A DNA stretch of 64,000 nt from Peronospora farinosa (lineage: Eukaryota > Oomycota > Peronosporomycetes > Peronosporales > Peronosporaceae). This document shows, piece after piece, positions 3,773 through 52,600 of this stretch (the stretch's first letter is position 1; every line of letters starts with the position of its first letter). Below the pieces are notes generated by a model. The model had not been told where the DNA came from. It saw only the letters and a program-made list of their open reading frames with translations, and did not search any database. The DNA lies in NCBI GenBank assembly GCA_947646735.1, contig CANTFK010000343.1, forward strand, positions 62,001 through 126,000, read 5' to 3'. Both the position numbers and the translations under genes were made by a program.

Positions 3773-3832
3773 CCTCATAGAGGGTCAGTCTTTAAAGACT
3801 CAGGTGTAGGATTGACTACGAGTGCTACCAAG

Positions 3833-13377: not shown

Positions 13378-13978
13378 TGTAACAGGGTATCTAGTTACAC
13401 ATAAACATTAAGTAATATACTTAATGTTTGGTCTAAAAGTATCCATGATTAATTTTGACCAGTCACTTGGGTGCGATACACAAATGTGATCCACCCTCGT
13501 GAATGTGATATCCATTGATGGATTCACATGAGAAGGGATGACGCTAGTTGAAGCTAGGCATCGCGACGTCTCAGAAAGACGTCAGTAGCGATCTTAAATC
13601 TAGATTTAAGTTCATGCGACAGGATACGTTTCTAAAGAGTCGCGTATCCGATCTCTATATATATATATATAGCCAATCAGTAGTTAAGTATATATTTAGT
13701 TATAATTAATTAAACATAGCTCAGTCTTGAATTTGCTTAAACACCGAAGCACCACGCACGAGAAGCTGAAAAGCTTCTACGTGACGTCGGTGCCTTCTTG
13801 TTAAGAAGTTCGTTGCACTCTCGCTTAAGCGAGAGGCAACTGGTGGTACGACTGCTTAAGCAGTCGACCAACCTCCTAACCACCCTCGCACGCGAAGATA
13901 AGACGGTCTAACCGCTTTCTCGCTTCCTCGCTTGTGTGCTAGTAGCACGAGGCAACTTCGTAGAAGTGTCCGTCTAGA
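13378..13978 (+). repeat. Gypsy-3 5' LTR (601 bp)
   Basis: It starts TGTAACAGGG at the break in the Copia remnant and ends CTAGA before the primer-binding site. The second half (13725-13978) is nearly the same as in the 3' LTR and contains a row of perfect inverted repeats, including 18-bp palindromes at 13818-13835 and 13849-13866. The first half is only loosely similar to the 3' LTR. An (AT)n run lies near 13653-13672. Confidence 0.85.
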
Positions 13979-30300: not shown

Positions 30301-32128
30301 CGCCATCTAGTGGGCATCTGGGCCGTGAAAAGACATTCTTACGAGTGTCAGAGGAATTTTGGCGGCCCCACCTATATCGGTGGGTGTCCAACTATATTCG
30401 CTATTGCGAAGCGTGTCAGCGCATAGAGCCTGCACCTTCAAACAGTGCGCCACTGAAGCCACTGACAATTCCAACGGATAGTTGGAAGTCGGTCAGTTTG
30501 GACTTCATGTTTGGCTTACCGCCTGACCATAAAGCAGGGCGGGGCTCGTCGTCTTTGTAGACAGACTGAGCAAGATGGTGCATTTAGCACCATGTAGTAC
30601 CAAGATCGCAGGAAATAAGGCTTCCCTCTTATTCCTGGAGCATGTGTATCGACTACACGGGATGCCCGAGTCCATATTATCGGACCGGGATCCGCGTATT
30701 ACGTCGGGTTTTTGGCGACATGTGTTTGAGTTGCTAGGTAGCAAACTCCACATGTCAGCCGCTGATCATCCCCAGACCGATGGCCAAACAGAACGGGCCA
30801 ATCGAGTCGTGGCAGATGTGTTGCGTACAGTAGAGACTTTCAAAGAATGGAGCAAGCAATTACCATTCGTGGAGCTCGCTATTAATAATAGTGTTCACGC
30901 CAGTACGGGTGAAACACCGTTATATATTAACGGACTGCGTCATCCTCGAACGCCAGTCTCGCTTGTACGCAGCCCGAGTCTTAGTGGGGGAGGGCCCCTC
31001 ACTTCGCTCGGAGCGAATTCCAAAAAGGGCCAAGGTTGCCCTAGTGACACTGCTAATTTAGCAGTGGTCACGTCACCTATAGGTGTCACAGAGGAGGCAC
31101 GGCAAGAAATGCCAGTGCTCCTTGATGATGACACTATAGTGTTGTCAACAGCGTCGACCCATGAACGACCTCTTGGAGGCGTCATAGGCGAGCTGGATGC
31201 TAAAAGCGTGAGCGAAGCTCAGCGCTTTGTGGATGAGCGATTAGCCATCACACGTAAAGTCCGTGACGAGATGGCAAGCGCACAGGACAAGCAAAAAGAA
31301 TATGCAGACCAGCATGGTCGCAAAAACAATGAACACTTTAGTGTGGGGGACAAAGTGCTATTAAGTACTGCTACCCTACCTAAACATGCAATTTCTGTAC
31401 TACCTGGTGGTACTACTAAGCTATTGCCCCGGTTCATTGGGCCCTTTGCAGTGGTTGAAGAAGTTGGAGACCTAAATTATAGGCTCACTCTCCCACCGTA
31501 TATGAAGACGCACCCCGTATTTTACGTGGGTCGTCTGAAACGGTATGTTGATCCAGAAGAGATCACATATCCGCATCGGTCTAACGAGATCGATGGTGAC
31601 GCCGACTGTGAGTCGAGCGTTGCGACCGATCAGGCGACGAGGAAGCCGAGAGGCTCCCCTTGTATGAACGAGGCGATAGAGGACTCGGTGATCGAGGAGG
31701 ACTCCGCGCTTGACGCGGGTCTCTCATCACCAGTCGCTCTAAGATGTCCAAACGGGTCTTCAGGCGGTCATACCCCTGACGGTCCCTCGTCCTCACATCG
31801 CGCAGATCCGAAGTCAGTCGCGAGACTTGACTCTCGAGATCTGACACCTGTCTCTTCAGCGCAGCAGACTCAGCCTGCGACTGAACAACAGCAGGGTAGG
31901 CAGCCGCGATTAGGTGGGCGTAATCGCCACTCCTATCGGGCGCCACCTGTGTTGGTGGACACGGAAGGGAATACGCGTTTCCTTGTTGGAAGGCTGTTGT
32001 CCCACCGGTTTGTGAAGCGAAAGCTCCAAATCCTTGTCCAATGGAAGGGTTACCCAACGAGCATTGACTCATGGGAGCCTGTTGACGCTTTGCGCGTCGA
32101 CGTGCCTGGGCTGGTGGCTGCTCACTAG
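27332..32128 (+). pseudogene. Gypsy-3 pol: protease, RT, RNase H, integrase, chromodomain
   Basis: The -1 frame (to 28875) has the retropepsin motif LLVDSGASQNFV and LILGMPWLAKHQPWIDW, a long linker, then the RT start ([20 protein letters not shown]). It ends at TAG 28873-28875, where the Gypsy-2 homologue has the lysine AAG. A one-base loss near 29075 leads to the frame 29052-30560 with YVDDVF, RNase H ([21 protein letters not shown]) and the integrase zinc finger (SGHLGREK, CEACQR). Another shift near 30540 leads to 30575-32128 with the integrase core (LSDRDPRITS, DGQTERANR), GPFAVVEE tail and an intact chromodomain (FLVGRLL...QILVQWKGYPTSIDSWEPV). Three breaks make it dead in this copy. 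Confidence 0.88.
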
Positions 32129-33027
32129 CAGAATCTCCAGCTACGCTCGCTCTGCTAGGTCCGGATGGACTAGCAGAAGAAGCGTAGCGAGAAATCAATT
32201 GGGGGTCGCTTACCGCCCATAATTTCATGCGCACGCTTCATGGCGAAGCTGATTCGCTGCGACCGCTGTTTCGTTGCATCTTCATGCAAGGTAATACGGC
32301 GCCGAAGTTCAGCTTCATAGTCGTCGGCTGTTTCGTTAAAAAGCAGCACGACTGGAATTGGGAAAGCACGACCAAGTGCTTTGCCCTGTTTTTTTCACAA
32401 AGGAAAGACGCTATAGAATTTATGAGCGTCTATAGTGGCACGCTGCAAAAGCGATGCGCTAGACCCATCTGAGTGCATCCACTCAGATGGAGGTGGCATT
32501 GGTGGCAAGCCACCACTCACGTAGCCGCCCTCGCGACGGCGGGCTAGTGAGGCCGAAGGTGTACTTGGTGGAGCTTTAAGCTCACACTCACCTGAGTCTG
32601 ACTCTCCATTATGGATTGTCAAGACATCAGCTTGAGAAGTTGCATCTGACTGAGTCGCGACTACTCCTTTCGAAGTAGCGTGCTCAGTCTTAGTCGCTGC
32701 GCTCGTAGGCGCAGGCGACGAGGTTTTACCTTCGCTTGCAGGAAGCATAGATGCTCTCTTAAGGAAGGGTGCCTCAAATGATGGGGACATATGTCCCATC
32801 AATGCACTTTGCTCATCGCCACTTTGGGGTGATGGCAATGGCGTAGTCTCATTGTAATCTACAATGAGAGATGGATCTTCATCCACATTATAGTGAGATG
32901 GAAGATCCACCCCAGTGCCTGAATCACTTTGCGACGGCTGCGATAAATCGCGGCGCGTGCGCTTAGTGCTGGACTGCATGGGTGCCTTTGCAGGCGACCC
33001 ATCAGCCTTACCACGTTTCGGTGGCAT
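31581..33027 (-). pseudogene. Antisense accessory gene of Gypsy-3
   Basis: Reads from near the 3' LTR back into pol. The frame 33027-32170 starts MPPKRGK, has a single in-frame TGA at 32394-32392, and continues through PVVLLFNETADDYEAELRRR. A second frame (32234-31581) overlaps its end and gives a basic run ARRRAKRQQ and a C-terminal coiled coil (ALKRQVSDLESQVSRLTSDL) followed by an R/S-rich tail. The LLF-ET-D block, the basic segment after it and the coiled coil occur in the same order in the antisense frame of Gypsy-2 (40463-41751), and both coiled coils lie opposite the linker between integrase and chromodomain. A GGCG|GTAAGC donor-like site lies near the frame change. Function unknown. 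Confidence 0.6.
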
Positions 33028-33119
33028 GAGAATTGAGTAGACAAAGCGGCGCGTTATATTACGGCTCGCAAGTCACTCTGTCTCCTAGGAGATGTTTTAC
33101 AAGATGTAAAAATCGTTTT

Positions 33120-33130: not shown

Positions 33131-33733
33131 TGGAGTAACGGGCTCAACGTTACACGTACACGTTAAGTATGCGATACTTAACGGGCAGGTCTCAAAAGGT
33201 ACGTAAGTACTTAAGACCTGTTGCTTGGGTGAGACACACCATGTGTCAAACCCTTGCGTATGTGATATACACTAGGTGTATTCACATTGATGGGGATGAC
33301 GCCCAGCTGGGACTAGGCGTCATCAAATGACGTCAGTCAGTTACGTCATTGAGCGAGCTTAAATATATTCAAGCTCGCACGTTGGGATGCGCATCTATAG
33401 AGATGGCACCCATCATTACATATTAACCAATCAGTAGTTAGATTTATATTTAGTTAAAATCTATTAAATATAAATCAGTCTTGAATTTCCTTAAACCGAA
33501 GCACCACGCACGAGAAGCTGAAAAGCTTCTACGTGACGTCGGTGACTTCTTGTTAAGAAGTTCGTTGCACTCTCGCTTAAGCGAGAGGCAACTGGTGGTA
33601 CGACTGCTTAAGCAGTCGACCAACCTCCCAACCACCCTCGCACGCGAAGGTAAGACGGTATAACCGCTTCCTCGCTTGTGCATAAGGTTTGTGCTCGTAG
33701 TACGAGGTAACTTCTTAGAAGTGCCCGTCTACA
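33131..33733 (+). repeat. Gypsy-3 3' LTR (603 bp)
   Basis: Starts TGGAGTAACGGG after the polypurine tract and ends GTCTACA. The second half (from about 33480) is nearly the same as in the 5' LTR, including the palindromes at 33570-33587 and 33601-33618. The first half differs at many positions and by indels. Confidence 0.85.
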
Positions 33734-33762: not shown

Positions 33763-34355
33763 TAGCAGGGATAATGGCTCGATCGTCACGTCCACGAACG
33801 GCAAGTCCAGCACAGGTTACGAAGGGGTCGTGTCGTGATCGTGGTTTAGCTGAATACAGTCCAGAGTGGCATCCCATCGCCACTGATGGAGGAGGCGGCA
33901 TAGAAGATGGCATGGACTTGTCTAATCGCGGTATGCCTGCACCTTGTCGTGACACTGGAGATCGGTCTAACCGCCGAGGCTCTGTGCCTTCGACTTGCCC
34001 ACAAGCTCTCAGTGCTGACGATAATTACCTGGACATGAAACATATAAAACGACTCCCACACCTTTTAATGCTGTCACTAACACCTCATTGCCGAATATTT
34101 CTCGCTTGGTGGGGGAAGAAGAAAGACCGGTTGCAGTTGTTAGGCCCGTTGAAGAAAAAACTGGAAATAATCCTGAGGCAGCGTATAGGCGATCTACTTG
34201 AGTACGACGACCAAATGTACGACTGTCGGATCATGAACTGAATTTTTCTGCAACCCTCGTAATTCAAGCAATGAATAACTGCTTAAGCCAATGTCAGTTA
34301 CCGAGGCTTTGAGTGACCCGGATGCAAGCAATGGAGAAAAGCTTTTGAGATTGAG
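33763..34355 (+). pseudogene. Copia remnant 2, integrase-RT linker part
   Basis: Shifted frames give SADDNYLDMKHIKRLPH, then LPNISRLVGEEERPVAVV, then the basic RRST-VRRPNVRLSDHELNFSA segment typical of the Copia linker before RT, ending at QWRKAFEIE. Several frames are used and stops occur, so it is dead. The reading resumes at 42506 on the other side of Gypsy-2 (YHELMRNLYRM..., then ELVDRPYGVKILKNK), proving that Gypsy-2 inserted into this Copia copy. Confidence 0.75.
34351..34355 (+). repeat. Target-site duplication TTGAG, left copy
   Basis: TTGAG here and at 42501-42505 flank the Gypsy-2 LTRs exactly, a perfect 5-bp duplication. Confidence 0.92.
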
Positions 34356-34993
34356 TGTAACGGGGTTACACGACGGTTGTAGCGTCTTTCCGGGAGTTTA
34401 CGGTTAAACTCCCCTTGTATTGCATATAATGCATTATGATACTTCTCTTTAGAGAGGTATTAAGTATAAGCGTTGAGATACGGTATTCGGTAATACCGTA
34501 TCTTATCGATTAGGATTCGATAATCGATAACGCTGTACTAAGTACATCATACACAGATGTTTAGACGATACGTCGTCCAATAGCAAAGTCTGCATATAAT
34601 AATTACTATTATAGTAATTAATCTAGTGTAGTGTACTTAGAGTAGGACTATTCATAAAATCTTAAAGCATAAATAAAATCAGTTCTCCTTTTGAGTTTAA
34701 GATCACAAGTCGTTCTGACTTGTTCTCTTGTGCACTTCGTGCGTTGGTTCTCTGAACCTCTAAGCTTCTAGCTTGTTCTTGCACCCTGTGCGTTGGTTCT
34801 CTGAACCTTAAGCTTATTGCTTGACTGACTAAAGTCTCTCTTTTAGTTTCTTAGAACAGGGTTACTTTCAGTCGTTTACTTAGTTCCTTAGAACTAGGTG
34901 GCTTTTAGCCTTAACTCTATTTAGTTCTCTCGAACTAAGAGGCTTCCAGCCGAAAGTCTTCCTCTGGCTAAAGAGCTGTGCAGCTCCGCTACA
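34356..34993 (+). repeat. Gypsy-2 5' LTR (638 bp)
   Basis: Starts TGTAACGGGGTTACACGACG, itself a TGTAAC/GTTACA inverted repeat, and ends CTCCGCTACA. Inside are many short hairpins (for example around ATCGATAATCGATA near 34520 and AATAATTACTATTATAGTAATTA near 34600) and a duplicated GCGTTGGTTCTCTGAACCT at about 34740 and 34790. Confidence 0.95.
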
Positions 34994-34995
34994 CT

Positions 34996-35012
34996 TGGTA
35001 GCACTTGTAGTC
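34996..35012 (+). other. Primer-binding site of Gypsy-2
   Basis: TGGTAGCACTTGTAGTC begins two bases after the LTR. It differs from the Gypsy-3 site at one base over this length, so both families probably use the same tRNA primer. Confidence 0.6.
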
Positions 35013-35053
35013 AATCCTACACCTGAGTCTTTAAAGACTGACCCTCTGTGAGA

Positions 35054-36055
35054 ATGGAGAATCAAAATCACCTCTCTGAGGCACAACGACTCGCCTTAGA
35101 TAAACTATCTGCGTTCGTCGGGCCTGATCAAATCGAGGCCCTTTTGGCCCAAGGCCCCGAGGTTCTAAATGCTCGTCTTGAGGCCTTTATGCGTTATGAG
35201 GCAACGCTCCTCGGGCAGGTCCATGACCAGGCAGCGTCAGCCGCGCCTATACAGTACATTCCGGTACCTGTGACCGATGCAGAGCCAAAGGCTCGTCCAC
35301 TTGTTTTAAGTGTCAAGACCTTCGAGGGGAAGGAGGGAGAGAACCTTCTCCTCTGGATCCGAGAAGTTGAAATGGCAATGGATGCCGCCATGCTTGCATC
35401 CGATAAGCAACGAGTTGGCTTGGCCATTTCTAAGCTCGGTGGAAGAGCTAGAGAGTGGGCTCTAACGAGCGGTGTCTCTGTAAATGCTGCATTTCCCACA
35501 TGGGAGATGCTTAAAAAGCAATTAACTTGTGTGTTTGCACCGCCTAATCAGGCTTATCGTGTGCGCTCACGCTTCCTAGCTACCCGACAGGGTAAGAAAG
35601 AATTGTCGGACTATGTCCAAGAGTTGAGAACTCTCATTGCTGCTATGCAGCAGGACCCACTGGCAGAGGAAGTCCGAGTAACCATTTTTATGGAGGGACT
35701 TCGCACTGGGGTCGCCAGGACGGAAGTTTATCGTGTCCAGCCTTCGACTTTTGAGGAGGCAGTAAGCGTAGCATTTAACGCTGAATTCAATTTTAAATCT
35801 GCTCGATATGGTCTGCCCTGGTATCAATCAAATACCTCTAATAGGGCGGAACCCATGGACCTCAGCCATGCTGAAGAAGCTGAGCTTCAAGCTGCTGAGC
35901 AGCAAGGTAGCATCCGTAGATGTTACATGTGCGGAAGCACTAGGCATCTCCGCCCTAGCTGTCCGTTGCGAAAGCAACGTTCAAATCGGCAAAGCCGAAG
36001 CCCTGCTCCTAGCCAAAAGGCGAGCACCGCAGGGGAAAATGTCAACTCCCAGTAG
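35054..36055 (+). CDS. gag: Gypsy-2 Gag
   Basis: Open frame of 333 codons from the first ATG (the frame is open two codons further, from GTG only). Residues 1-60 are helical, with [20 protein letters not shown]. The middle is the retrotransposon Gag capsid-like domain ([75 protein letters not shown]). Near the end comes one zinc knuckle [14 protein letters not shown] and a basic tail. It ends with TAG inside a strong hairpin. The frame is intact, so this copy could supply Gag. Gag assembles the cytoplasmic particle in which reverse transcription takes place. Confidence 0.93.
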
Positions 36056-36110
36056 GCGCGGGGCGCCCTACTGGGAAAGAACTAAGTTCTGTTGGATCTT
36101 AAGGAGGTAA
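36032..36110 (+). promoter_or_regulatory. Gag-pol junction of Gypsy-2 with conserved hairpin
   Basis: GGGGAAAAT (36032-36040) is followed after 7 bases by a 12-bp stem with one bulged C (36048-36059 with 36063-36075), whose left arm contains the gag stop. The stem core CAGTAGG/CCTACTG is the same as in Gypsy-3. The -1 frame leads toward pol but meets TAA at 36100-36102; the same TAA is kept in the old copy near 2725. Gag's frame meets a second TAA at 36083, and the third frame is open to 36110. How pol is reached is therefore unclear: slip plus read-through, or splicing. Confidence 0.5.
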
Positions 36111-36740
36111 AGGTAAACAGGGCTTAGCCACAGGTGGTTCTGTGGATGCTCCCATAGAACAAGATTACAAGCCAGGCTTGTTGGTTGTGTCGGCAACCGT
36201 TAAGGGTTTTGAGAAACCCTGGTCAATTTTAATTGACTCAGGGGCGTCAGGGAACTATGTCCGACGTCGCTCCCTTGAGGGGAGTCAGCTGTATGCTGAG
36301 GCGCTGGAAGCGCAAGAGGGTGACAGTATAACCGTACGTCTCGCGACTGGTGTACGTGTCACCGTTCCTAAAGTTCCGTTGAACTTAGGTGTGAAATTTT
36401 TAGATTTCAATAGCGTTGAACGCTGTCTTGTCCTAGATTTGGACTCGAGATATGATCTCATTCTCGGTATGGCCTGGCTGGAACGCCATGAGCCGTGGAT
36501 CGATTGGAGATCCAAAACTTTAGGCTTAACGCGCAATGTTCCTAGCGAAGCTTTGGAGAGTCATGAACCCACCTTCGCTAGAAAACAAAAGTGCTATTGG
36601 CGCGAGCCATTAACTGATTCAGTTAATGTGCTGGGCATTGGAGTGTCTGAGTTGATAAACTCCGATGTCAACAATAATAGTGTCGAGCAGAGCTCAATGA
36701 CACTTAGTGGAACGGCACGTACTCCGTTAAGTGATACTCA

Positions 36741-37265
36741 TAGTAATATTGGCTGTAAATGCGATTTACTGGATGTCGGTAATGACATCGGCTCTCGTAT
36801 AGAGCGAGTGAAGGTCAATGACCTTGTTAGTGATATTGGCTGTAAATGCGATTCACTGGATGTCGGTAATGACATCGGCTCTCGTATAGAGCAAGTTAAG
36901 GTCGATGACCTTGTTAGTGATATTGGCTGTAAATGCGATTCACTGGATGTCGATAATGACATCGGCTCTCGTATAGAGCAAGTTAAGGTCGATGACCTTG
37001 TTAGTGATATTGGCTGGAAATGCGATTCACTGGATGTCGGTAATGACATCGGCTCTCGTATAGAGCGAGTGAAGGTCAATGACCTTGTTAGTGAAGTCAC
37101 TGGTACTAGTGAACCACTGGGTGTCGGTAATGACATCGGCTCTCGTATAGAGCGAGTGAAGGTCAATGACCTTGTTAGTGAAGTCACTAGTACTAGTGAC
37201 TCACTGGATGTCGGTAATGACATCGGCCCTTACATAGGGCAGGTAAACGACAAGGGGTCTGTTGA
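36741..37265 (+). repeat. 87-bp (29-residue) tandem repeats within pol
   Basis: About six units, each encoding a variant of [19 protein letters not shown] followed by -VKV-DLVS, in frame, between protease and RT. The first four are almost identical; the last two replace the CKCD part with EVTGTSE. The frame-preserving unit length suggests the spacer tolerates length change. The old copy near 2072-2170 breaks off at this point. Confidence 0.9.
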
Positions 37266-39594
37266 CCTTGGGGAAGATAACATCCCAAGTACTTTAAAGA
37301 GTACGGTCTCGTCAATGAGACGGCAGCGTCGCCAGATGGCGGCTGCGAGGCGCAAAGCGTCTGTTTTATCGCATAGTAATGTCAATGACCAGTTGTACAC
37401 CCTGGTCAACGGAGTGACAGGTGATGTAGATGGTGAGGTTGACCTTGAGGCCCTCCCATCATTAAATGCTCTTTTAGAGCTAGGCGAAATGTCTGTGGAT
37501 GAATTTCATCAAGCCTTAGAGGCAGGTGCTCTGTCCGATATGGTGGTCATTCGACCTAACCTCGAGCTGAACTCATCCTCGCTTGTCGATGAGACAGTCC
37601 TTGAAGATACCAAAGCGGCACTAAGTGCACGTAGTGGGGCATCTATTCTAAAGGACCCTTCAGATCCCTACTATCCTTTGGTAAAAGAATTCCAGGACGT
37701 GGTGTGTCACGATCCACCGTCGGTTCTACCACCTGATAGGGGCGTACGTCATGAAATTGACTTGGTTCCCGGAACCAAATACTGTGTAACACGGCAGTGG
37801 CCTTTACCCAAAGAACAGTGTGACGTCATTGACGAGTTCTTTCGTGCAAAGCACGCGGCGGGCATGGTGCGTGAAAGTAAATCTCCGCACTCGACACCCA
37901 CTTTCTGTGTTAAGAAACCAAATGGTAAATGGCGTATTGTTCATGCTTATAATAAGCTCAATGCGGCCACTATACCTGCACAGACACCGATACCTAGAAA
38001 GGATGTTCTTCAAAACAATATGGTCGGTTGTACCATGTACAGTGCGCTCGACTTAGTCGATGGTTATTACCAATTGCTCATGCGAGCTAGTGATATTCCG
38101 CTTACTGCTGTTAGTACTCCGAGCGGTATGCTCTGGGAGTGGTTAGTGATGCCCCAAGGGCTATCTAATGCTCCGGCTACGTTTAACCGTTTGGTGACGC
38201 AATTGTTTCGACCCCATCGAAGTTATGCACAGACGTATTTTGATGACATTTTTGTCCATAGCCGAGCTGAACATGGTCGGTCAGATATTGAGAACCATAT
38301 TGTTCATTTACGAGCAGTGCTCGAGTGCATGCGCACTAATAAGTTATATGCTAATGCCTCTAAGTGCATCTTCGGGGCCGAAGAAATTCCCTTTCTAGGG
38401 TGCTTCATTGGGAAGCGAGGACTACGAGCGGATCCCGCCAAAGTCAAAGCCATAGTCGATTGGCCTGTTCCACAGTCTCAGAAGGACTTGCGTAAATGGC
38501 TTGGCCTTGCCAATTACTTACACAAGTATAGCGAAAATTACGCTTATATGGCTCGGCCGTTATCCAATCTCCTTAAAAAGGATGTGGAATGGTGTTGGCA
38601 TGCCGAACACGAAAATGCTTTTCAAGCAGTGAAGGCAAGCCTTCTACATGCTCCTATTTTGGCTTTGCCAGACCCTGACCGACCGTTTAGCGTCGTCTGT
38701 GACGCATCGGATTTTGCCATTGGCAGTGCTCTGTTACAATCAGATGATGAAGGCCGTGAGCGTGTAATCGCTTTTGAATCCCGCCAGCTGAAAGCTGCAG
38801 AAAAGAACTATCCAGTTCACGACAAAGAGCTACTTGCGATGAAGTATGCCCTGGTCAAATTCAGAGTTCATCTGCTGGGCTCAAAGCCTTTTGTGATCTA
38901 TACCGATCATGCGTCGTTACGCACTGCGACTCAGTCGCCGCATCTCTCGCAGAGAATGGCCAGATGGCTGTCATTCTTTGCCGAATATAACTTCGAGGTG
39001 AAATATAAGCCGGGCAAGCAAAATGCTTTGGCTGATGCGTTGTCACGCAGACCTGATTATGAGCTTGCTCATGTGACGATGTTGTCGTCTTCTATCACCG
39101 ATCTCATTCGTACGGCGTATGCTAAAGATGATCACTGTATAGCGTTGCTACATGCTCTTGGCAGTGAGGAGTTTAAAGACTCGGACATTAAATTGTCGGC
39201 ACGATTGCGTGCAAGCCTCCATCGATATTCTATCGATGAGGGGCTGTTGTACTATCGTACAGATGTAGCGGATCCTCCGCGTATTGTAGTTCCTCATGAC
39301 GAGGACCTGAAACATCGTATCCTCTATAAGGTACATGACACCGCCATCGGTGGTCATTTGGGTCGTGAAAAGACCTATGGGGCAGTATGCCAAAGTTATT
39401 GGTGGCCCAAATTATACAAATGGGTGAGCACATATGTGCGTACGTGTGAAATGTGTCAGCGGGTGAAACCCTCGCCCCATTCGGCAGCGCCGCTGGCTAG
39501 TTTGCCTATTCCCACTGGGTGCTGGGAGTCCATTAGTATGGACTTTGTATTTGGCCTACCGAAAGATTCGCATGGCAATACAGGTATTGTGGTC

Positions 39595-39654
39595 TAAGTG
39601 AGCCATCTTGCTCAAACGGTCTTTGTTGACCGTTTGAGCAAGATGGCTCACTTA
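39595..39654 (+). repeat. 27-bp inverted duplication with stop codon in integrase
   Basis: 27 bases starting TAAGTGAGCC are the exact reverse complement of 39628-39654, with a 6-base loop TTTGTT. Comparison with Gypsy-3 (VVFVDRLSKM) shows the left arm is an insertion. Its length is a multiple of three, so the frame is kept, but its first codon is TAA. Confidence 0.9.
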
Positions 39655-40462
39655 GCGGCTGTGCCAGATTCGATCGATGGTGTGGGTACAGCGGAGCTGT
39701 TTATCGATCGGGTGTTTTGCCAACATGGCTTGCCAGTGGCAATTGTTTCTGATCGTGATCCTCGTTTTACGAGTAAATTTTGGAAGTCCGTCTTCCAGGT
39801 GCTGGGCACCCGTTTGGACATGTCCACGGCGGATCATCCGCAGACCGATGGTCAAACCGAACGCGTAAATCGCGTTGTTGAAGATATCCTACGCAGCGTT
39901 TGTGCTGAAACGCCTAAGCGTTGGAGCTCTATGCTCCCTGTAGTTGAGTTTGCACTCAATAATTCCGTGCACGCCTCCACCGGCTACACTCCGTTCTATG
40001 TCAATGGTCTCACACACCCACGCGTTCCGTTAACGCTACCACCGAGTGGTTCAGGGCTTGGTGGGGGAGAGGTTGCCGATCGGCTTGCTGATGTCAGCCC
40101 TAATACTGTTAAGAAACAGGTAAATGCGTTTCTCGCAACGCGACTGAATGTCTTACGACATGTGCAAGATGCAATGGCTGATAGTCAAGATAAACAAAAG
40201 GAATATGCAGATGCGAAAGGCAGAGGTTGTATTAATGATTATGAGGTCGGAGACCAAGTATTATCAAATGCTAAAAATCTACCTACCAATGTAGTATCCG
40301 CTGTCTTTAAGACGAAGTTGCGCCCACGATTTATCGGACCCTTTAAGGTCATTGCCAAGAAAGGCACAGCGTATACGCTTAACTTGCCGTGCAAATTGCG
40401 TACACATCCTGTGTTCTATGTCGCCATGTTGAAACCTTATCGGGATCCGTCCCAAGTAAACA

Positions 40463-41751
40463 TTAAGGCGCTCGCGCCGAGCCCATTGGCATTGTCGCGG
40501 GACGAAGCATCTGCGCCAACATGTCAAGCTGACCCTGCATTCGGGTCCGACTCTCTTCCAGGGACGCAAGCCGGGAGTTCATCGTCTGCCTCTCCTCACG
40601 AAGGGACCGTACCTCCTGAACAAGCTCGGCATGAGCTTGTACCGATACACCGGCCTCCTCCTCCTTTGCTCGATGCTCAGGGGAACCTGCAGTTCCATGT
40701 GGAGCGTCTACTGCAGAAGCGTCGCCGCCATGGTCAAAACCAGTATCTGGTGAAATGGCGGGGTTATCCCGAATCATGGAATTCATAGGAATTTGAGACT
40801 CCCCTTCGGCAGGATTGCCCGTACGCCGTGGACGTTTTTGAGCGTCGTGCGCAGGGTCTGCCTGTTGGCGCTGACGCTTCTCACCAGTAATGGTGAGGGT
40901 AGGCGGGTTAGCGGCCTCGGGCTGTCGTGAACTCGCGGCTACAGGGGTAGCCAAAACATTGGGCTGCTGGGCAGCAGGCGCATAATGCGTTCGTTGGTAT
41001 TTCAATTTTCCCTGGGCCTTCAATTTAGCGTAATCATAACGCATCTTCCGCTCAAGTCGGATATGTGGCAGATATCCATCTGCCACATCGGCGCTTGCCC
41101 GTAGGGCCCACATGCTGCTTAAACGTCGCGCATAATGCGCCCAGCGGCTGAAAGCCGTGTCTTCTTCGTCCTCGGTTTCCCCCGCGAACAGAAGGATGGG
41201 AACACCCTTCATCGGAGGAACTGGCGCACCGCGCACTTGCCTATTAAGGCGTGCCAAGTACTGGCTTTGAGTAGTGATATGGGGCTCCAGATATCGTTGT
41301 CGAAGTGCCGTGCGTGTGGCAACATCCTCAGGCGAAATGGCCTCAGGCCCAATGGTCCAACCAGAAAGGGAATGCCCAGATGCTTCCTTTAGGCGTTCTT
41401 CCACCGTAGGTGGCTTGAACCTGTACTGTCGGTGATCCTTCAGCCGCGTCATGTTCTTCGTTCGGCGCTTGGCGCCTTCCTCTTGGTCGATGGACCGCTG
41501 TTGCTGCTCGTCGAGTGGATTGGTAACCGTTACCGTTGATGATACCTCAGGCGGGTCACGTAACGCTGTTAGCGCATCTGCTGCACCACGTTCAGGGAAC
41601 GGATTCGGTGCATGACGAGTGTCATCTTCACCCGTGAGGGTGACCCATCGGGTCCCACAAAGACGGTGTCACTTTCGTAATCAACCGCTTCTTCAAGGTC
41701 GTCCCCAATGAGGTCCCTAAGAGTCTGTGACTCACTGCCGGGAGGCGTCAT
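40463..41751 (-). CDS. Antisense accessory protein of Gypsy-2 (one frame change)
   Basis: Frame 41668-40463 (named start possible at 41452) overlaps the end of pol and contains, from 41452: GVPILLFAGETEDEED at residues 83-98, a Y/R/K-rich segment, a basic run EKRQRQQ...KRPRR, and a C-terminal coiled coil (ELVQEVRSLREERQTMNSRL). The N-terminus seems to lie in another frame (ATG at 41751, beginning MTPPGSESQTL with VDYESDT) that overlaps by about 100 bases; a one-base change or splice would be needed to join them. The motif block, basic segment and coiled coil match the antisense gene of Gypsy-3. The coiled coil lies opposite the pol tether. Transcription would have to start in or near the 3' LTR. 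Function unknown; I know of antisense frames in plant Gypsy elements, but cannot say whether this one is described. Confidence 0.65.
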
Positions 41752-41850
41752 GTTCTGTGCCGTGAACAAACCGTGAGGTTTTAAGCGTTCGCTAAAGCAC
41801 TACCTCTAAGAGGAAAAATGTCGAGTGACATTCTATGGGAACGTCAGTCT

Positions 41851-41862
41851 GGTGGGGGAGGG
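41851..41862 (+). other. Polypurine tract of Gypsy-2
   Basis: GGTGGGGGAGGG directly precedes the 3' LTR. Confidence 0.75.
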
Positions 41863-42500
41863 TGTAACGGGGTTACACGACGGTTGTAGCGTCTTTCCGG
41901 GAGTTTACGGTTAAACTCCCCTTGTATTGCATATAATGCATTATGATACTTCTCTTTAGAGAGGTATTAAGTATAAGCGTTGAGATACGGTATTCGGTAA
42001 TACCGTATCTTATCGATTAGGATTCGATAATCGATAACGCTGTACTAAGTACATCATACACAGATGTTTAGACGATACGTCGTCCAATAGCAAAGTCTGC
42101 ATATAATAATTACTATTATAGTAATTAATCTAGTGTAGTGTACTTAGAGTAGGACTATTCATAAAATCTTAAAGCATAAATAAAATCAGTTCTCCTTTTG
42201 AGTTTAAGATCACAAGTCGTTCTGACTTGTTCTCTTGTGCACTTCGTGCGTTGGTTCTCTGAACCTCTAAGCTTCTAGCTTGTTCTTGCACCCTGTGCGT
42301 TGGTTCTCTGAACCTTAAGCTTATTGCTTGACTGACTAAAGTCTCTCTTTTAGTTTCTTAGAACAGGGTTACTTTCAGTCGTTTACTTAGTTCCTTAGAA
42401 CTAGGTGGCTTTTAGCCTTAACTCTATTTAGTTCTCTCGAACTAAGAGGCTTCCAGCCGAAAGTCTTCCTCTGGCTAAAGAGCTGTGCAGCTCCGCTACA
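41863..42500 (+). repeat. Gypsy-2 3' LTR (638 bp)
   Basis: Reads the same as 34356-34993 throughout, with the same ends. Confidence 0.95.
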
Positions 42501-42505
42501 TTGAG
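42501..42505 (+). repeat. Target-site duplication TTGAG, right copy
   Basis: Pairs with 34351-34355. Confidence 0.92.
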
Positions 42506-43215
42506 TATCACGAATTGATGCGAAATCTGTATCGTATGGGAGCTAGTGGATCGGCCTTATGGAGTAAAGATTCTAAAGAATAAGTGCATTTTTGTGCGAA
42601 AACGAAATGCGCAAGGTGACGTGTGCCGATATCGCACGCGAATCACGATTAAGAAATGTCAGCAAGAGTTTGGTTTTGTCAGCTTTTGGGAGACCTACGC
42701 TTCCGTAGCGAAGGCTGAGTCGTTGATATTTGTTTTGCTTGTAGCTCTGTTCTTGGGCCTGCATTGTCGCCATATTGATTTTTTGACAGCATATTGAATG
42801 GGCCTCTCGATGATATGGAAGTTTATATGGAACAGTCGATTACTTTGATGATTGTTCTAGTTAAGTTTGTAAGCTGATACAAAGTCAATATGGTTTACGT
42901 ACGACAAGCATCTCGTAGGTGGTACAAAATGCGGATGTGTATCAGAAAAAGCGCGGTTTTCGGCGTACAAAAGTGGATGCAGGTGTATATGTGCGAACAG
43001 TGGGAGGGAACTAATAGTACATTACCGTATATGTGGATAATCTTTTGATCGTTGAAACTGAGTCCGACATTGAGATGGTTTTAGTACAGCTTCAGAGCAA
43101 GGTTGAATCTAAGGACTTAAGTCCTGTAAAGCATTTGCTTGGAATGGAGATATCATGCCAGGGTATAGGATGTCGATTACATAACGCGGCTACATTGAGA
43201 AAATTTAAAGTGTAA
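42506..43215 (+). pseudogene. Copia remnant 2, reverse transcriptase part
   Basis: After a one-base shift near 42540 the frame reads ELVDRPYGVKILKNKCIFVR, CQQEFGFVSFWETYASVAKAES and CRHIDFLTAY, the N-terminal half of Copia RT. It then decays, with MDNLLIVETES (the YVDD region, first residues altered) at about 43033 and KHLLGMEISC near 43130. It belongs with 33763-34355; Gypsy-2 separates the halves. Confidence 0.82.
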
Positions 43216-44887: not shown

Positions 44888-46230
44888 TTAAAGTAGTACG
44901 TAGTCATCCTCATCATCCGCTCCGGTGTCAGCAGCATTTGTGAACTCGTCCTCGTTCGTATCGTCGCCTGAAAGGCAGTCCGCCATCAGCAAATCCACCC
45001 CACTTGCTGCGTAGTCAGGCCGACGTGCGGCAACTGAGAATGGACACATGCCACCATTTGCCTTTACTTCATCGTGCAGAGTACGTACACGCTGCTCAAA
45101 GTCTTCATAATCGGCACGATTTTGACACAAAAACCCCAGTGCTAACGATGGATCGATAGTAGTCACACTCATAACCAACGGACGCGACGAGTGGACGGTG
45201 CGCAGATGAGTCTGTACATGTCAAATCCACATCAAGAGAATCTCATACATGGTCAGCACGCTATCAGCACAATATACACACTATTCTTGTAGCAAAAACT
45301 TACTGCTGTGGGAAACGCAGCGTTTAGTTCCGGCGTCGGATGCACGTCATGAGGGTCCAACAAATGTAGTTGGTCCTGCTGCGTACCGACAAAGTAAACA
45401 GAATGTCCCTGTTTACCGCCAATAATGCCCACACTTTGCGGGAACGTAAACGTTTTTTTCAACGCCGGCACGTAACGTTCATTCACATGATCAAGACCAA
45501 GTCGAAGCGGAATTAAAATGAGCAACGCCGTGCTCCAATTACAGCTATCTTCCATCGTTGGTGGATGCAATAACGGGTCAAAAAACTCTGGCAGCTTCTT
45601 CTCCTCCTCTGTCTTCTTCTTCTCCTCTTTCTTTTCTTTCAAATGGGAGACACAAAGTTTTGTGACATCATCAGTATATACAACTCCTTCTTGAGGCACA
45701 TACATTGCCATTGGTCCACCAAATTCACATTGATGTAAATTCACTAAATCTCTCAATACTTGAGCAGCTGTTGTTGGTCCGTACCATTCTCCTGGTAACT
45801 TATCATACTGCATCCCAAGTTTGACCATCTGGTGGATTGAGTACCGACAGACCAAATTAGGTGAATCACTAAACCATGTCAATAATTGAATATAAAGCTC
45901 TGGTAATTTGGCACTAAGTTCCGTTTCAAAAAGAGTAGGCAGATGCCAGTCTCGACCCAATAAAAGACGTTGTAAAGCCTGTCCCAATAACATTTGGGCC
46001 GAACGAAGCATACAGCCCCATCCAGCATCACTTGTGTACTCATAAGGTATCATTTGAGGGAAATCCCGACGGTATGTAAACCATAAAATCGATTCAAACG
46101 TCCGTTTATAAGCGTCAAAATCTGCAGCTGCCACGTCATTAAATCGACGTCCCAGTAGCCACACGGGTGCACTAAGAGAAGCTGATGGTGTCACGTCTAG
46201 TGCGGAAATACCGTGAGTAAATTGAGCCAT
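44888..46230 (-). CDS. ATG4: Autophagy cysteine protease ATG4 (two exons)
   Basis: Exon 1 is 46230-45304 and exon 2 is 45211-44888, joined in phase across a 92-bp intron (GTAAGT at 45303, ACAG at 45212), giving 416 residues, normal for ATG4. Motifs: APVWLLG, then SDAGWGCMLRSAQM with the catalytic cysteine at 73, GIIGGKQGHSVYFVG, and LDPHDVHP with catalytic Asp292 and His294. Exon 2 opens THLRTV and has the conserved IDPSLALGFLC block. A lysine/glutamate-rich loop (about 198-212) is an insertion. The acidic C-terminus ends DDYVLL, a good LC3/ATG8-interacting motif candidate. The enzyme processes ATG8 before lipidation and later removes it from membranes, in the cytoplasm. The frame is open about 27 codons upstream without ATG, so a short upstream exon is possible. 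It shares a short intergenic region with the divergent NUP188 gene. Confidence 0.93.
45212..45303 (-). other. Intron of ATG4 (92 bp)
   Basis: GTAAGT at the 5' end and TACAG at the 3' end. Removal restores the ATG4 family sequence between FPTA and THLRTV. Confidence 0.88.
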
Positions 46231-46624
46231 TTGACCGAGAAATCCACCGCTTAATTCCCACGCAGTTTGACCAAGAACGTCCCAAAAGACACGGGAATTT
46301 TGTGACGTCTTCAGGATGAATTACAACGTGAAAATAAGTGCGATCGAAAGAAGAAATACAACACTAGACAATGAGGCTAGTAGAAGTGTCGAAAACAAAG
46401 CAAAAGAGACGAGAACGACCGTCAAAGTGACGCAAGAAATAGAATTTAGCTTTAATCTTGGAAAGAATCGCAGAATGAATTGATGCTTGTGATATACGAT
46501 ATCACACCATGTAATCGGAATAGACAGGTATGATGTGGACCCCAATATAATATGTAGCTATACGTAACCTTACGATGTAGCTCTACACGAGCCATTCCTT
46601 ATAAAGAGAGATCCAAGTCATTTC
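46231..46624. promoter_or_regulatory. Shared intergenic region between ATG4 and NUP188
   Basis: About 390 bp separate the two divergent start codons and should hold both promoters. A small minus-strand frame (46545-46321, 74 codons) with two hydrophobic stretches lies within it and ends just before ATG4. I cannot support it as a gene, but it could be an upstream frame. A TCATTTC initiator-like motif sits directly at the NUP188 start, too close to be convincing. Confidence 0.5.
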
Positions 46625-49600
46625 ATGGCCGAGTCTCCACGTAGCATTTTATCGTGGCTACGGCGCTGTCGTCGCGATGAGTTGTCTGTAGACCGTGTAT
46701 TGGAGTCTATTCACTCCATCTATGGCGTTATTCCTCTTGGTGGATGTATGGATAGCACAGACGGCGTGACTCTGCCTGCGACGTCTAAAAGGTCAGTTCT
46801 GACGCTGTTTTCTGCTTCCAAAAACGCTCTTCTTGAGCATAAATCAGGCACAACCAAGGACGAGACGAATGACTGGACATTATTACTAAGAAGCGTCCAA
46901 TTACCGTCGAAATCGGATCAGCAGGAGCTTCAACAAGCTCTCGAGATGCTTCAAGACGAGGAGAAAAACGAGAAAAAGCCGCTTTCGATTGAAACTTTAC
47001 GACAAAAATTCTTTACAATGAGACGACTTTATTTTGAAGTTCGTATTGAACTTTTGCGCGTCGCTAGAGACGCTCAACATCCCTCTAATCAAGCAGCTCA
47101 AGAGATTGTCCAGGAGCTATTGAAAGAGGGACTACAGGACGTTTTATTGGATGAAATGCATAGTCGACAATTTTATGATTTACCAGTAATAAATGGGGTT
47201 GGACGAGCAGAAAACAAAGCTCTGGAAGCTTGGGAATTGCAATTTCTGGAAGAGGAGACACTATTGCGAGAGTTGTTATTGCTGACTCTTGTGGTGACGA
47301 CAGAGAAAAAGACGACATTATATTGTGCTGTCAAGATTGCCAAGACGGTGCAAAACTGGGAAACTCGGATACGAAATGAAGTTTTTACGGCCAATACACT
47401 GGCGATGCCTAAGGCACAACAATTGATAAGAAAATTGACGCAGATTGGAGTGCTAGTGGCACTGAAATTACTTTATAATATTGAAGATACACTGGATTAT
47501 GAAGATTTACGACAAGTGACAAAGAACTTTTTTTTGACAGAGTCAAGTGGACTTTTAAGTGGTGAATTGGTGACGTCGTCGGTGCCGGGTGTACTGTTGC
47601 TGGCTTGGGCTGCAGTGCTGGGTCGACAATACCGTAAAATGACAGAATGTAACCGGAAGAGTGAAGAAATAAGGGAATTGAAGAGTATGTTGGAGACGAC
47701 ATTGGCGGCAGCAGAGCGACTGCATAGCTTTTATTATTTACACTCACTGTTGTGCTCGTTAATATTTTCCATTGATAAAACGGATTCCAGCAAGATGGAA
47801 CGGAAACCATTTTTGCTGCCAATGAGCGTTCATGCGAAGACGTTGTGGGAATTACCCAATGTTCCTGCCTTTGCGGGCCTATGTGGTGCAAACACGACTT
47901 TGTCGCAGCAGCTGATCGGCTCTAACAGTGCATTTGTCTATCAGGACGTGGTAGCAGAGTTTTTGAATGATATGCTGTCGTCACTAGGTTACATGGACAA
48001 CATTGATGGGGTGCAACAGCTGCACGCGATGGTAAAGTTTGTACTGCCTGCTGTTTCGAACGTTCGTGTAGCCAAACAGATTCTTGGGATTGACATGGAG
48101 GAGAGCAACATGGTGGACATCATGAATAGCGGAGAAATAGCTGCGCTTCGCATCCTACTGACGAAAACTCGGGTTTACTTGCCGCACAGTCTGCTGCCTT
48201 GCGTTCAAATGTTTACGGCGTTATGCTACAACGATCAAAATTATACGTCACCAAGTGTGATTCGGCAGGTACTCAAGTATTTTAGCTCGCCGCGTGCTGG
48301 ACTAGAAGGAGAAACGACCACTGGTGTTTTTTGTCGTCCATTGCCACCGACAGAGTATTTTGCTGAGATTCAGGACGAGCCTGATCAATTGCAATGCACG
48401 CGTGCTTTCGCTTACGACGATGCAGATGGGCGTTTAGTGGTGCCTGTAGGAACTGTCGGTATGATCGTGGGCTCTAGTGACGTTGTACAGGTGAAGTGGC
48501 TACTTTCGGACAGTAATGAAGGGAAGAACGCGTTTTCCTTGTGGGATTTGCTTTTTCTAAACGCGGACAGATTTGTGGCAGGTCTTCAGTCCGGTTCTTT
48601 TGCAGATCTGCATCGCACAAACTCAGAAGATATGCATGTTCTCACGTCATTTTTCGAATTTATCGTGCAGCTAGGTCAGGGCCAGGATGGTGAACAGTTT
48701 GCGGTGAAGGAGATGACTCGCCGTTGGGGCGAGGCGAGACTGCGTCATTGGTGGGTTGCTCATCAACTTCCTTCACCAGAAGTGTACGTATCTCAGCTCT
48801 TGAGGCAAAAAATTGCCCTTCCTACTCTGCTTTTGGCATCAAGGGAAAACTTGGTGTCCTGGAGAATCAGAGATCGTTACATACGGGAACAAATTTTGGT
48901 GCAGATTGGAGACACGAAGAGTCTCGGAAGCGGAAACACTAAGATGGCACTTAATTCGACGAGTACAATGACTTCGTATAGTGTGGATGGAGGCATTCAT
49001 TTGTTGCGTCTATTACTGGGAGTGCTAGACGGATTTTTGCATAAATTTTCAAGGGATACTGACAATGACGCCATGAAAGGTCAAAGCGCTGGTTTTGCGA
49101 TGCATCTGCATCTTGTTGCGGCTTCTTTCATTGCTCTACGGACGATTTTAGCCACCACAAGTGGGGTGGAGCTGTTGATGAATTCTTCACTTGGTGGTGG
49201 GCAAGAAGAGTGCATAAACTTGATTGTTAAAAGCGCTAAGAAATTTTTTGAGGTGCAGGAGCGATTGACAGGAGAGTACCCTGTCGTATTGGCAACGCAA
49301 GACATTTTTATGAGCGTGGTACGGTGGTTTTTATCGAAAGAGGTACAATTGCTTGCAAATCTTTCCAAAAGCGAAGATAAGTTATTTTCTCGTGAATTTG
49401 TTGCAAGTGAAAGACTTTGGTATGTCAGCGCAGCGGAATTTGCGATTGAAGTATTGTCAACCCACGAAGGTTGGAAATTTGTGACCACTACCGATCGATG
49501 TGAGGTCAAGGAACGATGCTTCCGCTTGCTCTACGTGCTGGTGCTTCCTCGCAAATGCACCCAGAAGCGCAATGACATGGTACTAGCATTCAAGTCTGCT

Positions 49601-52600
49601 TTGCGTGGGACACTCGCCACGGACATGCCGTTGCTTATAAAGCTGTTACGTTCATCATGTGCCGTGCTGTCGCCTATGAAAGGCCACAGGGGTCACTGGA
49701 ACAGATATTCGTTAGCTGACAACAATGAAGATAGCGAAGTGTCAAGCATTAACGTTGAAAGTCACAAGGAACGCTTTCCATTGAAGTACAAGAGCGAAAT
49801 TGACAGAGATGGGGATAACATGATGCAGCTTGAATCGCTAGTGACAACGTGTTTGCGATTGGTAGCGTTTCTCATTACGAGCCATAGTAACGTGGTGGAT
49901 GCACCGGCTGCGCGAAAGATTTTGCTGGCGCCAATTTACGGTGGCGGTTCTAAAGAGCGCAATCTGCTAACAATTGTTACACTTTGCGGGGGATATCTAG
50001 AGTATTCATTGGAAAAGGCGCCTGGTATTGTGTACTGGTCCTTGCAGATTTTGCAGCATGCCGCTGTTGCGCTAGACTACCATGAGGAACGAGAGAGTCG
50101 CAACCTTTCTTCGATGCACTCCCTGATTGCACTTTTCCATGGATATCAAGACCTTGATGTTGTTCGTGGGAAATTTGCGCATCTACTACAAGTATCATCG
50201 ACGCACCAGTCGGCATTGCGAAAAGAAGTTATTGAATTCCTGACACTGTGTCTGGAGCACCAGCCAGGCTTTTTGGCGTTGCTACTCTTCGGCGAAGAAA
50301 GGGCAGAAGGCTCCAAGTCAGAAGACACCACGAAAGAAAAGGTGGAGGGAGACCCGTTTTCTTTCGTGACATTATTGGAACGCTTTTTCGAGTCTTCTGA
50401 AAGGCTCCTAGAGCAAGCCTCGGATCTTCTCTGCGCCTTACTGGCGTTCCTTGTGCAGGTATGGAAAGGTGCGATTCAACACCGTCTTGTCATTCATCTT
50501 AAGATTATGACAGCCCTGCGTGCGCGTCCCGCATTCTGGTTAAATGTGACACGTGCCCTGAAGATTCATATGTCATTAAACTCGGTAGAGGAACGTGGGC
50601 TTCTGGATATGGAACTTGCTGCTGCCACTGCTGAAGGAGTGGGGAATTTGCAGAGTCCGTCTAACTTGTCGGAAGTGTACATTGGGCGGTCAAGTGCGTA
50701 CGGATATATGGCTCGTAGTCTAATTCTTCAGTTAGTGTCATACGAGTGGCACGATCAAGTTTCAAAACAAAAAGATCATCCGCTAGTGGATGTGCTGAAA
50801 TCTTTCGGGAAGGAGGGGCTCTTTTCGCATTGGTCACGCACTTTTACTCACTTGGACTATTCGCCGGCACAGTTAGAGCTGTACGCGTCGTCTATCGATT
50901 TGAACATGCTCACAACGAACCTTCTCAGTGATATTTCGGCTCGTGGTATTTCAATGTACATTGAAGGTCTCATATGTAACACTAGCACACTTAAATGGCA
51001 ACTCAGCGCAGGTGGCGATTTCAGGCTGGAAGCTTCTCCAGCGGATGTCCGCATGTTGAAATTAGGTCAGTGGAGTAATTTGCAGGCCGCCTATCTTCAC
51101 GCGCAGCTCTTTCTCTTATCCAAGTGGAAGGTATTTATGATGGAGCTGTGTTGCCTGCAAACGAGTGGAGCTGCTCATAGTACACCTGATGTTGACACGT
51201 CAAGCGAATTGACGACCTTGCGGCAGTCGAAAAGAAAAGATTCGACGATCTTGTCGCCTCCTCGCAACAGCGGAACGGATAGTACGCCGAGTATGGGTGC
51301 TACTTCGAGAGAGCAATTAACTGCATCTGCGTCTTCTACATCTACCTCTGAAAGTACGCCTGCGCTACCATCTTCACTTATTTTTGGTGATCGGACATCA
51401 TTCGAAATGATCCGAGTCGTTGCGGACGTTATCAAGGCAAGAGTGAATCAGCACGAAAATCAGGACCAAGTTCTTGACTACTTCGTGTTGCTACATCTTC
51501 ACGATCTAGTGCAGCTTCTGGTTTCAATGTTGCAGCATCAGTTGTGTCTAGTCGTACGCAAGACACGTGACCCCAAGTTATCTCAGACTCGACAACATCT
51601 TAATGGGTCTAGCGCGGAGCCCAATTTTGCATGTGATGCCGGTGCAACATTTGAGTTATTAGCTGTCGTTGAGAAGGCAATTAGTGCAGTGCACGATTCA
51701 ATGGATCAAATTGTGTGCAAGGTGGATCTCGTGGGGCTTGGCGCCAAGAGTCATCTCATGTCTGCTCCTTCAATTAAGCTTACTTTTATGCCATTAATTT
51801 CTCACCTGGTGACGGACTACACGCAGAGGGTGGAATCAGTAACCGGTGGATTGCTCACGTCACTTTTCACAGCGGCGTTACTGCTGATGCGTCACTTGAG
51901 TAAGATTAACAACCACAAAAATGTCGCGAACAAAAATGTCGAGCTGGAAAGTATTTCGCCACCTAAGTCCCTCTTGCAGATGAAGTTAATTGGACGGTGC
52001 ATGAACGTCATTGCTTCGTGTGATGATAATCAGCCGCAGTTGATGACGTCTTCTCGAACTCTGTTTCAACTAAGCCGGTGTCTGTTTCAGGAAGTTCTCG
52101 ACAGCTTTATCAGTGTCGATGCTTCCGTTTCAAGTATTATAAAGCTACGCACATATAACGTACTGCAGCTGAATCCGTTAGTCAAAAAGCTGGAGCATGA
52201 AGAGCATGGAATAGGTGCTCTCTTTCACCTGTTGGTGCAACGCTTCCGTCTTTCACAATACGACAAGGAAGTGACCGCGAAACAAGAAGAGGCATGCCAG
52301 ACTCTCCGAGGTCTAGTTGCGGTTGTATGGAACCCAACGAACTCTGAATTATGTCAGCGTACTATGCTTAAGGGAAAGAGCAGCTCTTATCCAGCATCTC
52401 GTCTTCGTTTGATATCGATACTTGCGACACAGTTGTTGCCGCTACTGCAGACTCAGATGGAGCGCGAAGAAGCTATTACAAAATTGCGTGGCTACAAGCT
52501 GTCAGTACGTGATAGTAACGAGACGGACCATACTAAAGAAAAGGAAAATTTGGAACGCTCGATTGCGCACCAAATGTGGTGCCTCGTGCTCGACTTTGTG

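Follow-up and report, generated by a model that had tools for sequence, protein, structure and literature searches.

Two Ty3/Gypsy families of the oomycete Peronospora farinosa, Gypsy-2 and Gypsy-3, very probably carry a third gene on the strand opposite gag-pol, which is of common descent in the two families and under purifying selection. Both families are found in the window analysed here, a stretch of 64,000 nucleotides of contig CANTFK010000343.1. An earlier note on this DNA had proposed an old accessory gene, common to both families and kept by selection, and this proposal is supported by homologues as well as by the rarity of shared non-synonymous change. The many copies in one genome permit a codon-level selection test with a built-in neutral control (the variants seen in a single copy), and the gene passes it. 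The features discussed below are the following (window positions).

34355-35004, plus strand: 5' LTR of Gypsy-2, 99.5% identical to 41862-42511.
35042-40788, plus strand: Gypsy-2 gag (35042-36055) and the pol pieces 36103-39597 and 39598-40788 (integrase, SH3, chromodomain).
41862-42511, plus strand: 3' LTR of Gypsy-2, with the antisense ATG 111 bp inside it and a purine-rich run directly before it.
33133-33731, plus strand: 3' LTR of Gypsy-3, delimited at its start by the LTR-end word GTAACGGG (33135) and at its end by the repeat 13662-13976 / 33417-33731.
40463-41751, minus strand: antisense gene of Gypsy-2, a broken copy; intact copies have 427 codons from the ATG.
31581-33027, minus strand: antisense gene of Gypsy-3, a broken copy; intact copies have 481 codons from the ATG.
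40463-40887, minus strand: portion of the Gypsy-2 antisense gene that, in intact copies, lies over the 3' end of pol.
31581-32155, minus strand: portion of the Gypsy-3 antisense gene that, in intact copies, lies over the 3' end of pol.
41003-41518, minus strand: residues 82-248 of the Gypsy-2 antisense protein, predicted to form a folded core and encoded outside pol (pLDDT block means 83-94).
41159-41206, minus strand: block GVPILLFAGETEDEED of Gypsy-2, common with Gypsy-3.
40505-40642, minus strand: predicted C-terminal coiled coil of Gypsy-2, residues 369-414, opposite the integrase-to-chromodomain linker (pLDDT block means 91-96 for 371-410).
32203-32577, minus strand: residues 151-275 of the Gypsy-3 antisense protein, a conserved middle region in which the shared block begins at residue 221 (32367); dN/dS 0.38 and 0.40 for variants in at least three copies.

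The whole Gypsy-2 element spans 34355-42511 and has LTRs of 650 bp. The Gypsy-3 sequence is discontinuous: 13662-13976 holds a part of the 5' LTR, Gypsy-1 is inserted in the gag, and the remainder reaches 33731. Matches above the Pfam cut-off to Retrotrans_gag, SH3_Tf2-1 and Chromo place the elements among the Ty3/Gypsy elements with a chromodomain; the integrase core (rve) stays under its cut-off, with 24.9 and 19.6 against 32.6 bits. Gypsy-2 and Gypsy-3 had been described as differing throughout their other genes and their LTRs. This description holds for the LTRs, which have only short words in common, but not for the genes: identity is 32% and 23% in the gag pieces and 33% in the piece before the reverse transcriptase (RT), and reaches 50-55% from RT on, with 42% in the integrase and 48% in the chromodomain piece. 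The two families are thus close relatives in pol, and joint inheritance with pol therefore suffices to explain a common antisense gene.

Several further observations concern the surroundings of these elements. The LTRs of Gypsy-1 (14483-15629 and 25556-26704, gag-pol on the minus strand) are 99.3% identical, and those of Gypsy-3 are 89.7% identical over the matched 315 bp, the nest with Gypsy-1 spanning 13662-33731. A partial inverted copy of Gypsy-2 at 2075-4381 is 92% identical over 1970 bp to 34788-36751. Between protease and RT, Gypsy-2 pol contains an in-frame tandem repeat of 87-bp units (36654-37247), with five registered copies that are 73-96% identical to the reference unit; the repeat leaves a 163-codon antisense frame. 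A gene for a Peptidase C54 (Atg4-type; 45253-46320, minus strand, E 4.5e-79) lies some 3 kb from Gypsy-2, and an open frame of 2332 codons at 46625-53623 (plus strand) has zero Pfam matches at E 0.001.

The long antisense frames first noticed as starting near the 3' LTR are present in both families, broken in the two window copies and intact elsewhere. In the window, small length changes have left a 401-codon piece in Gypsy-2 (40463-41668, the position equivalent to the intact ATG being 41751) and two pieces in Gypsy-3 (31581-32237 and 32395-33072), and a single unbroken frame is found elsewhere in the genome at L005:1348-2676 for Gypsy-2 (427 codons) and at L017:625-2124 for Gypsy-3 (481 codons). 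The start codon is 111 bp inside the 3' LTR in Gypsy-2 and about 106 bp inside it in Gypsy-3, and the frame ends within the 3' end of pol. The first 285 codons in Gypsy-2 and the first 289 in Gypsy-3, about 60-67% of the frame, are free of pol overlap; the remainder overlaps pol in an identical phase in both families. Across the non-pol part (855 nt in Gypsy-2, 867 nt in Gypsy-3), the reference copies have only the antisense frame open out of six, the remaining five carrying 7 to 30 stops. As in the class known as aORF-3R, the open frame lies between pol and the 3' LTR on the strand opposite gag-pol, here also overlapping the end of pol, and it is retained in many copies of each family. Searches of the 46.9 Mb assembly gave at least 108 matches for the Gypsy-2 antisense gene (103 of 601 candidates scored) and, for the two pieces of Gypsy-3, at least 150 (150 of 782 candidates scored) and at least 151 (150 of 819). 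Frames broken at random in most copies had been named as an outcome that would count against the gene; 31 of the 48 best-ranked Gypsy-2 copies are free of stops and deletions over all 427 codons, insertions being invisible in this count. By the same count, the non-pol part is free of stops and deletions in 37 of 60 Gypsy-2 and 26 of 49 Gypsy-3 copies.

For the selection test outside pol, copies were aligned to a reference copy, which removes insertions, and every variant entered the count a single time per site and was classed by how many copies have it; the dN/dS expectation was built from the observed types of base change. Mutations that arise after insertion should appear as singletons and be neutral, and those passed on by transposition should be shared. 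Both samples were picked and are not random: 48 best-ranked and 12 diverged copies for Gypsy-2 (60), and for Gypsy-3 (49) the 17 copies left after dropping seven overlapping ones from 24 loci of the genome search, together with 12 diverged and 20 further copies. In Gypsy-2, singletons comprise 98 synonymous (S), 255 non-synonymous (N) and 17 stop changes (dN/dS 1.05); the ratio falls to 0.62 for variants in two or three copies and to 0.22 for those in at least four (S 64, N 29, stop 0; p 1e-12). In Gypsy-3 the corresponding series is 0.96 for singletons, 0.88 for two or three copies (p 0.47), 0.55 for four to eight (p 0.09) and 0.42 for nine or more (p 0.006), and all variants in at least four copies give 0.47 (S 35, N 41, stop 1; p 0.0014). 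Shared and singleton variants differ in both families (Fisher, 9e-14 for Gypsy-2 and 9e-4 for Gypsy-3), also after thinning to 40 and 42 copies, respectively (4e-15 and 4e-3). The earlier note had set dN/dS near 1 as the result that would speak against the gene; in this pol-free sequence the shared variants lie well below it, at 0.22 and 0.47, and singletons are neutral. Purifying selection is weaker in the antisense gene of Gypsy-3 than in that of Gypsy-2. By codon position 1, 2 and 3, the shared changes number 19, 7 and 67 in Gypsy-2 and 17, 18 and 42 in Gypsy-3, and the remaining two frames of the same strand have ratios of 2.24 and 3.51 (Gypsy-2) and 1.36 and 1.51 (Gypsy-3) for variants in at least four copies. 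The same kind of count for pol beyond the overlap, made in 48 Gypsy-2 copies, yields 0.90 for singletons against 0.18 for shared variants.

Selection is unevenly spread along the protein. For variants in at least three copies, dN/dS in Gypsy-2 is 0.44 for residues 1-100, 0.06 for 101-175 (S 32, N 4), 0.21 for 176-260 and 1.12 for 261-285; in Gypsy-3 it is 0.71 for residues 1-150, 0.38 for 151-215 and 0.40 for 216-275. A gene on the sense strand of the non-pol part was considered as well, one sense frame being low too (0.31 in Gypsy-2, 0.49 in Gypsy-3). Its ratio is low because its third positions coincide with the antisense third positions, and since all three sense frames carry stops (7 to 16), the sense signal was judged to be an echo of the antisense one.

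Within the pol overlap, constraint appears to be shared out between pol and the antisense gene. Taken as a whole, the Gypsy-2 overlap has a dN/dS of 1.15 in the antisense frame, which is thus unconstrained there, and of 0.55 in the pol frame (variants in at least two copies); in the 17 Gypsy-3 copies the values are 0.77 and 0.90, neither frame being distinguishable from neutral. The two families were then pooled, with variants in at least two copies, and the overlap was divided into a segment opposite the chromodomain (residues 287-364 in Gypsy-2, 291-365 in Gypsy-3) and one opposite the linker (365-427 and 366-481). Opposite the chromodomain, the antisense frame has S 2 and N 29 and the pol frame S 22 and N 11 (0.25, p 1e-4); opposite the linker, which includes the coiled coil, the antisense frame has S 24 and N 28 (0.57, p 0.053) and the pol frame S 13 and N 38 (1.39, p 0.37). 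The contrast between the two stretches is significant in both frames (Fisher, 1.6e-4 for antisense and 2.6e-4 for pol), and as the cuts were chosen after the structure model had been viewed, it is a strong lead and not a proof. Selection across the entire antisense C-terminus is ruled out for the stretch opposite the chromodomain, where the antisense protein is not conserved for its own sake, and on the coiled coil it does not go beyond a trend.

As judged from their sequences, common descent of the two antisense genes depends on a single block of about 60 residues. The two proteins are about 20% identical overall, only these 60 or so residues can be aligned, and BLASTP of one against the other gave nothing significant (best E 0.35). 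The block, GVPILLFAGETEDEED in Gypsy-2 and PIPVVLxxNETxDxYEAE in Gypsy-3, sits in the most conserved part of both families and at an equivalent position before the pol overlap. Comparison of the non-pol parts by hhalign gave a score of 37.5 (E 1.6e-4), with a mean of 14.5 and a maximum of 26.9 in 300 column shuffles, none of which equalled it, and with 13.4 and 15.8 in reversed-profile controls; a comparison using fewer sequences gave E 8.8e-6. The matching block pointed out earlier is thus real and beyond chance, and by itself it scores 35.2 (maximum in 200 shuffles 19.8). The N-terminal VDY stretch, proposed as another common feature, did not hold up: its score alone was reached by 11 of 200 shuffles and is not significant. 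That of the part before the block was reached by 3 of 200. A profile of Gypsy-2 together with Phytophthora proteins scores 46.7 against Gypsy-3 (shuffle maximum 25.8), and Gypsy-3 scores 31.9 against the Phytophthora pair (shuffle maximum 23.8). By BLASTP, the Phytophthora cactorum protein P0126, which is close to Gypsy-2, matches the block of the Gypsy-3-type protein P0081 (E 0.005, calculated for a single comparison); the P. sojae protein P0149 did not match the block of a Gypsy-3-type protein in this way. The simplest reading of these sequences is one ancestral antisense gene that would have changed much faster than pol.

Searching for homologues, as had been suggested, located them in many copies and in species of Peronospora, Hyaloperonospora and Phytophthora. 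The top database matches are from Peronospora effusa (95% for Gypsy-2, 96% for Gypsy-3) and P. farinosa (96% for Gypsy-3). Among about 8000 candidates scored in each case, Gypsy-2-type relatives number at least 67 proteins, the closer ones including P. effusa, and Gypsy-3-type relatives at least 14, the more distant of which are 47-62% identical. Gypsy-2-type proteins of Peronospora matthiolae, P. destructor, Hyaloperonospora arabidopsidis and H. brassicae are 34-54% identical to P0001. A profile search (122 proteins at E ≤10, the best 120 of the 122 listed, about 8000 candidates scored) adds P0126 of Phytophthora cactorum (E 5e-68) and P0149 of P. sojae (E 5e-37). Where named, the relatives are annotated as unnamed, uncharacterized or hypothetical proteins, and these database names suggest that such frames sit in downy mildew catalogues as anonymous proteins.

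An AlphaFold model, made for the Gypsy-2 antisense protein only, contains a confident core and a C-terminal coiled coil. The N-terminus is predicted to be mostly disordered and to be followed by a folded core (about 170 residues), a basic stretch that is also disordered, and the coiled coil, the last of which (residues 369-414) is encoded opposite the integrase-to-chromodomain linker, as had been claimed. No Pfam domain matches the antisense protein family above threshold. TRP28 (PF04195) is absent from the Pfam matches of P0001 and P0002 to E 10 (the HMMER filters drop most matches above 0.1) and, to E 0.01, from those of 49 members of alignment A3. A sub-threshold match of P0002 to the coiled-coil family PF25785 (E 0.0037, 18 of 27 bits) and a match to PF18156 in one of the 49 members of A3 (E 0.0094) are regarded as noise. 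A sequence search of the PDB found only weak coiled-coil matches (best E 0.015), and a fold search of the PDB gave no usable structural relative of the core, so that Pfam, PDB sequences and PDB folds were all unhelpful in assigning a function.

Several other explanations for these frames have to be weighed. That the antisense frame is a meaningless by-product of codon constraint in pol is almost certainly wrong: about two-thirds of it lies outside pol and is constrained there in its own frame, which refutes this explanation for the non-pol part, although opposite the chromodomain pol is indeed constrained and the antisense frame is not. Judged against pol codon usage, an antisense frame open through the overlap could be chance in Gypsy-2 (P 0.07) but is improbable in Gypsy-3 (P 0.008). 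It is very unlikely that the stretch is conserved as a cis element or as a non-coding antisense RNA, with a protein neither made nor needed. Antisense transcripts from retroviral 3' LTRs act both as coding and as non-coding RNAs, according to PMC10186651, and an antisense RNA across pol could silence or shield the sense RNA; however, the shared changes shun positions 1 and 2 of a single frame and the protein is conserved at places where frame and stops count, and non-coding activity could still be an additional role of the transcript. An independent origin of the two genes, with the block shared by chance, would fit the empty BLASTP result, the short alignable part and the low identity, but is unlikely given that the profile scores were reached by none of 300 and none of 200 shuffles, that position and overlap phase are equal and pol related, and that a protein near Gypsy-2 matches the Gypsy-3-type block. 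We also consider it improbable that a host gene was captured once and has been hitch-hiking since. In favour of capture, three protein searches (about 8000 candidates scored each) found no relative beyond oomycetes; against it, selection in two families, in many copies and in several genera, together with a fixed place in the element, argues for a use to the element itself, wherever the gene came from.

An antisense third gene of common descent under purifying selection is thus the preferred reading, and what its protein does can be proposed with less confidence. By analogy with retroviruses that have antisense genes and with maize Grande, the promoter for transcription would lie within or next to the 3' LTR; the basic stretch may allow nuclear entry and the coiled coil may form oligomers, and the protein may then act on the element's own transcription or on a chromatin or integration step. 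That the protein is a nuclear regulator is a reasonable possibility, which we put somewhat short of an even chance. A candidate promoter of the INR/FPR type lies 79 nt before the Gypsy-2 ATG, and at least 45 of 48 copies reach a score of 10 or 11 (out of 14) there; it was rejected as not significant, the best score of the reference copy being attained by 36.7% of 1000 shuffles in Gypsy-2 (score 10) and by 89.7% in Gypsy-3. We regard it as tenable, if rather doubtful, that a real accessory gene works outside transcription control, its product docking on Gag, integrase or the pre-integration complex (for nuclear import or targeting) or countering host silencing. A pol with a chromodomain, the basic stretch and the coiled coil fit a docking protein, and section 7 of the review PMC7264820 considers such roles for plant antisense ORFs; on the other hand, no observation made here sets docking apart from regulation, and the RNA for the antisense protein would not be the packaged one, and a role in its own particle should be less easily selected. 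This raises the question of how the product of a non-packaged RNA remains under selection in a multi-copy family.

Gypsy-1, which is 27.6% identical to Gypsy-2 over 312 RT residues, also has an antisense frame between pol and the 3' LTR, of 680 codons in the window and of 728-794 codons in several of 65 scored copies, with stops in others. It is without a Pfam match and has no clear relation to the Gypsy-2 and Gypsy-3 proteins (BLASTP, best E 2.4, and 0.017 in a 26-residue coiled-coil-like piece). The strand opposite this frame is also open, for 397 codons, and as a third gene the Gypsy-1 frame is only a lead from sequence. A wider picture, which we offer tentatively as one that may well prove wrong, is a standing antisense third gene of Peronosporaceae Gypsy elements that would go back to a single ancestor with relatives in Phytophthora and the downy mildews, be maintained by selection in two families or more, encode a nuclear regulator with an unrecognised fold, share out its overlap with pol (disorder opposite the chromodomain, fold opposite the linker) and have a further, unrelated counterpart frame in a more distant Gypsy lineage of the window.

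Antisense ORFs between pol and the 3' LTR are a known kind in plant and fungal Gypsy elements, which bears out and extends the earlier remark that they occur in some plant elements. Accounts of such accessory genes in retrotransposons come mainly from plants, and no function has been established for them. No earlier report of the present oomycete gene was found in the open-access literature. Chronos and Archon (PMC5348765) are likewise oomycete Ty3/Gypsy elements, and Chronos has a chromodomain; the word 'antisense' occurs zero times in the main text of that paper and zero times in the accessible part of PMC11540230. The retroviral genes HBZ (HTLV-1), APH-2 and ASP (HIV-1) resemble the oomycete gene in lying antisense near the 3' LTR with an expected LTR promoter, and HBZ is a nuclear regulator (PMC10186651). 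No sequence relation to them was seen, and the likeness is one of possible working only: the oomycete gene is known from sequence, and its protein offers a basic stretch and a predicted coiled coil as the only features of an HBZ-like regulator. Closest are the antisense ORFs covered in PMC11963269, which have the same place and strand, many copies and relatives across species, some of them being nuclear. Unlike these, the oomycete protein has no TRP28 or other Pfam domain (TRP28, PF04195, being the mark of the Retand-type antisense protein) and overlaps the chromodomain end of pol, and selection was here measured per codon against singletons of the same copies. New in this comparison are the protein family, the host group, the codon-level evidence with a neutral control, the descent common to two families and the overlap that is apparently shared out with pol. 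If true, a group of oomycete Gypsy elements gains a third gene, comparable to those that retroviruses and plant elements carry in antisense, and provides a case in which the division of constraint between overlapping genes can be measured.
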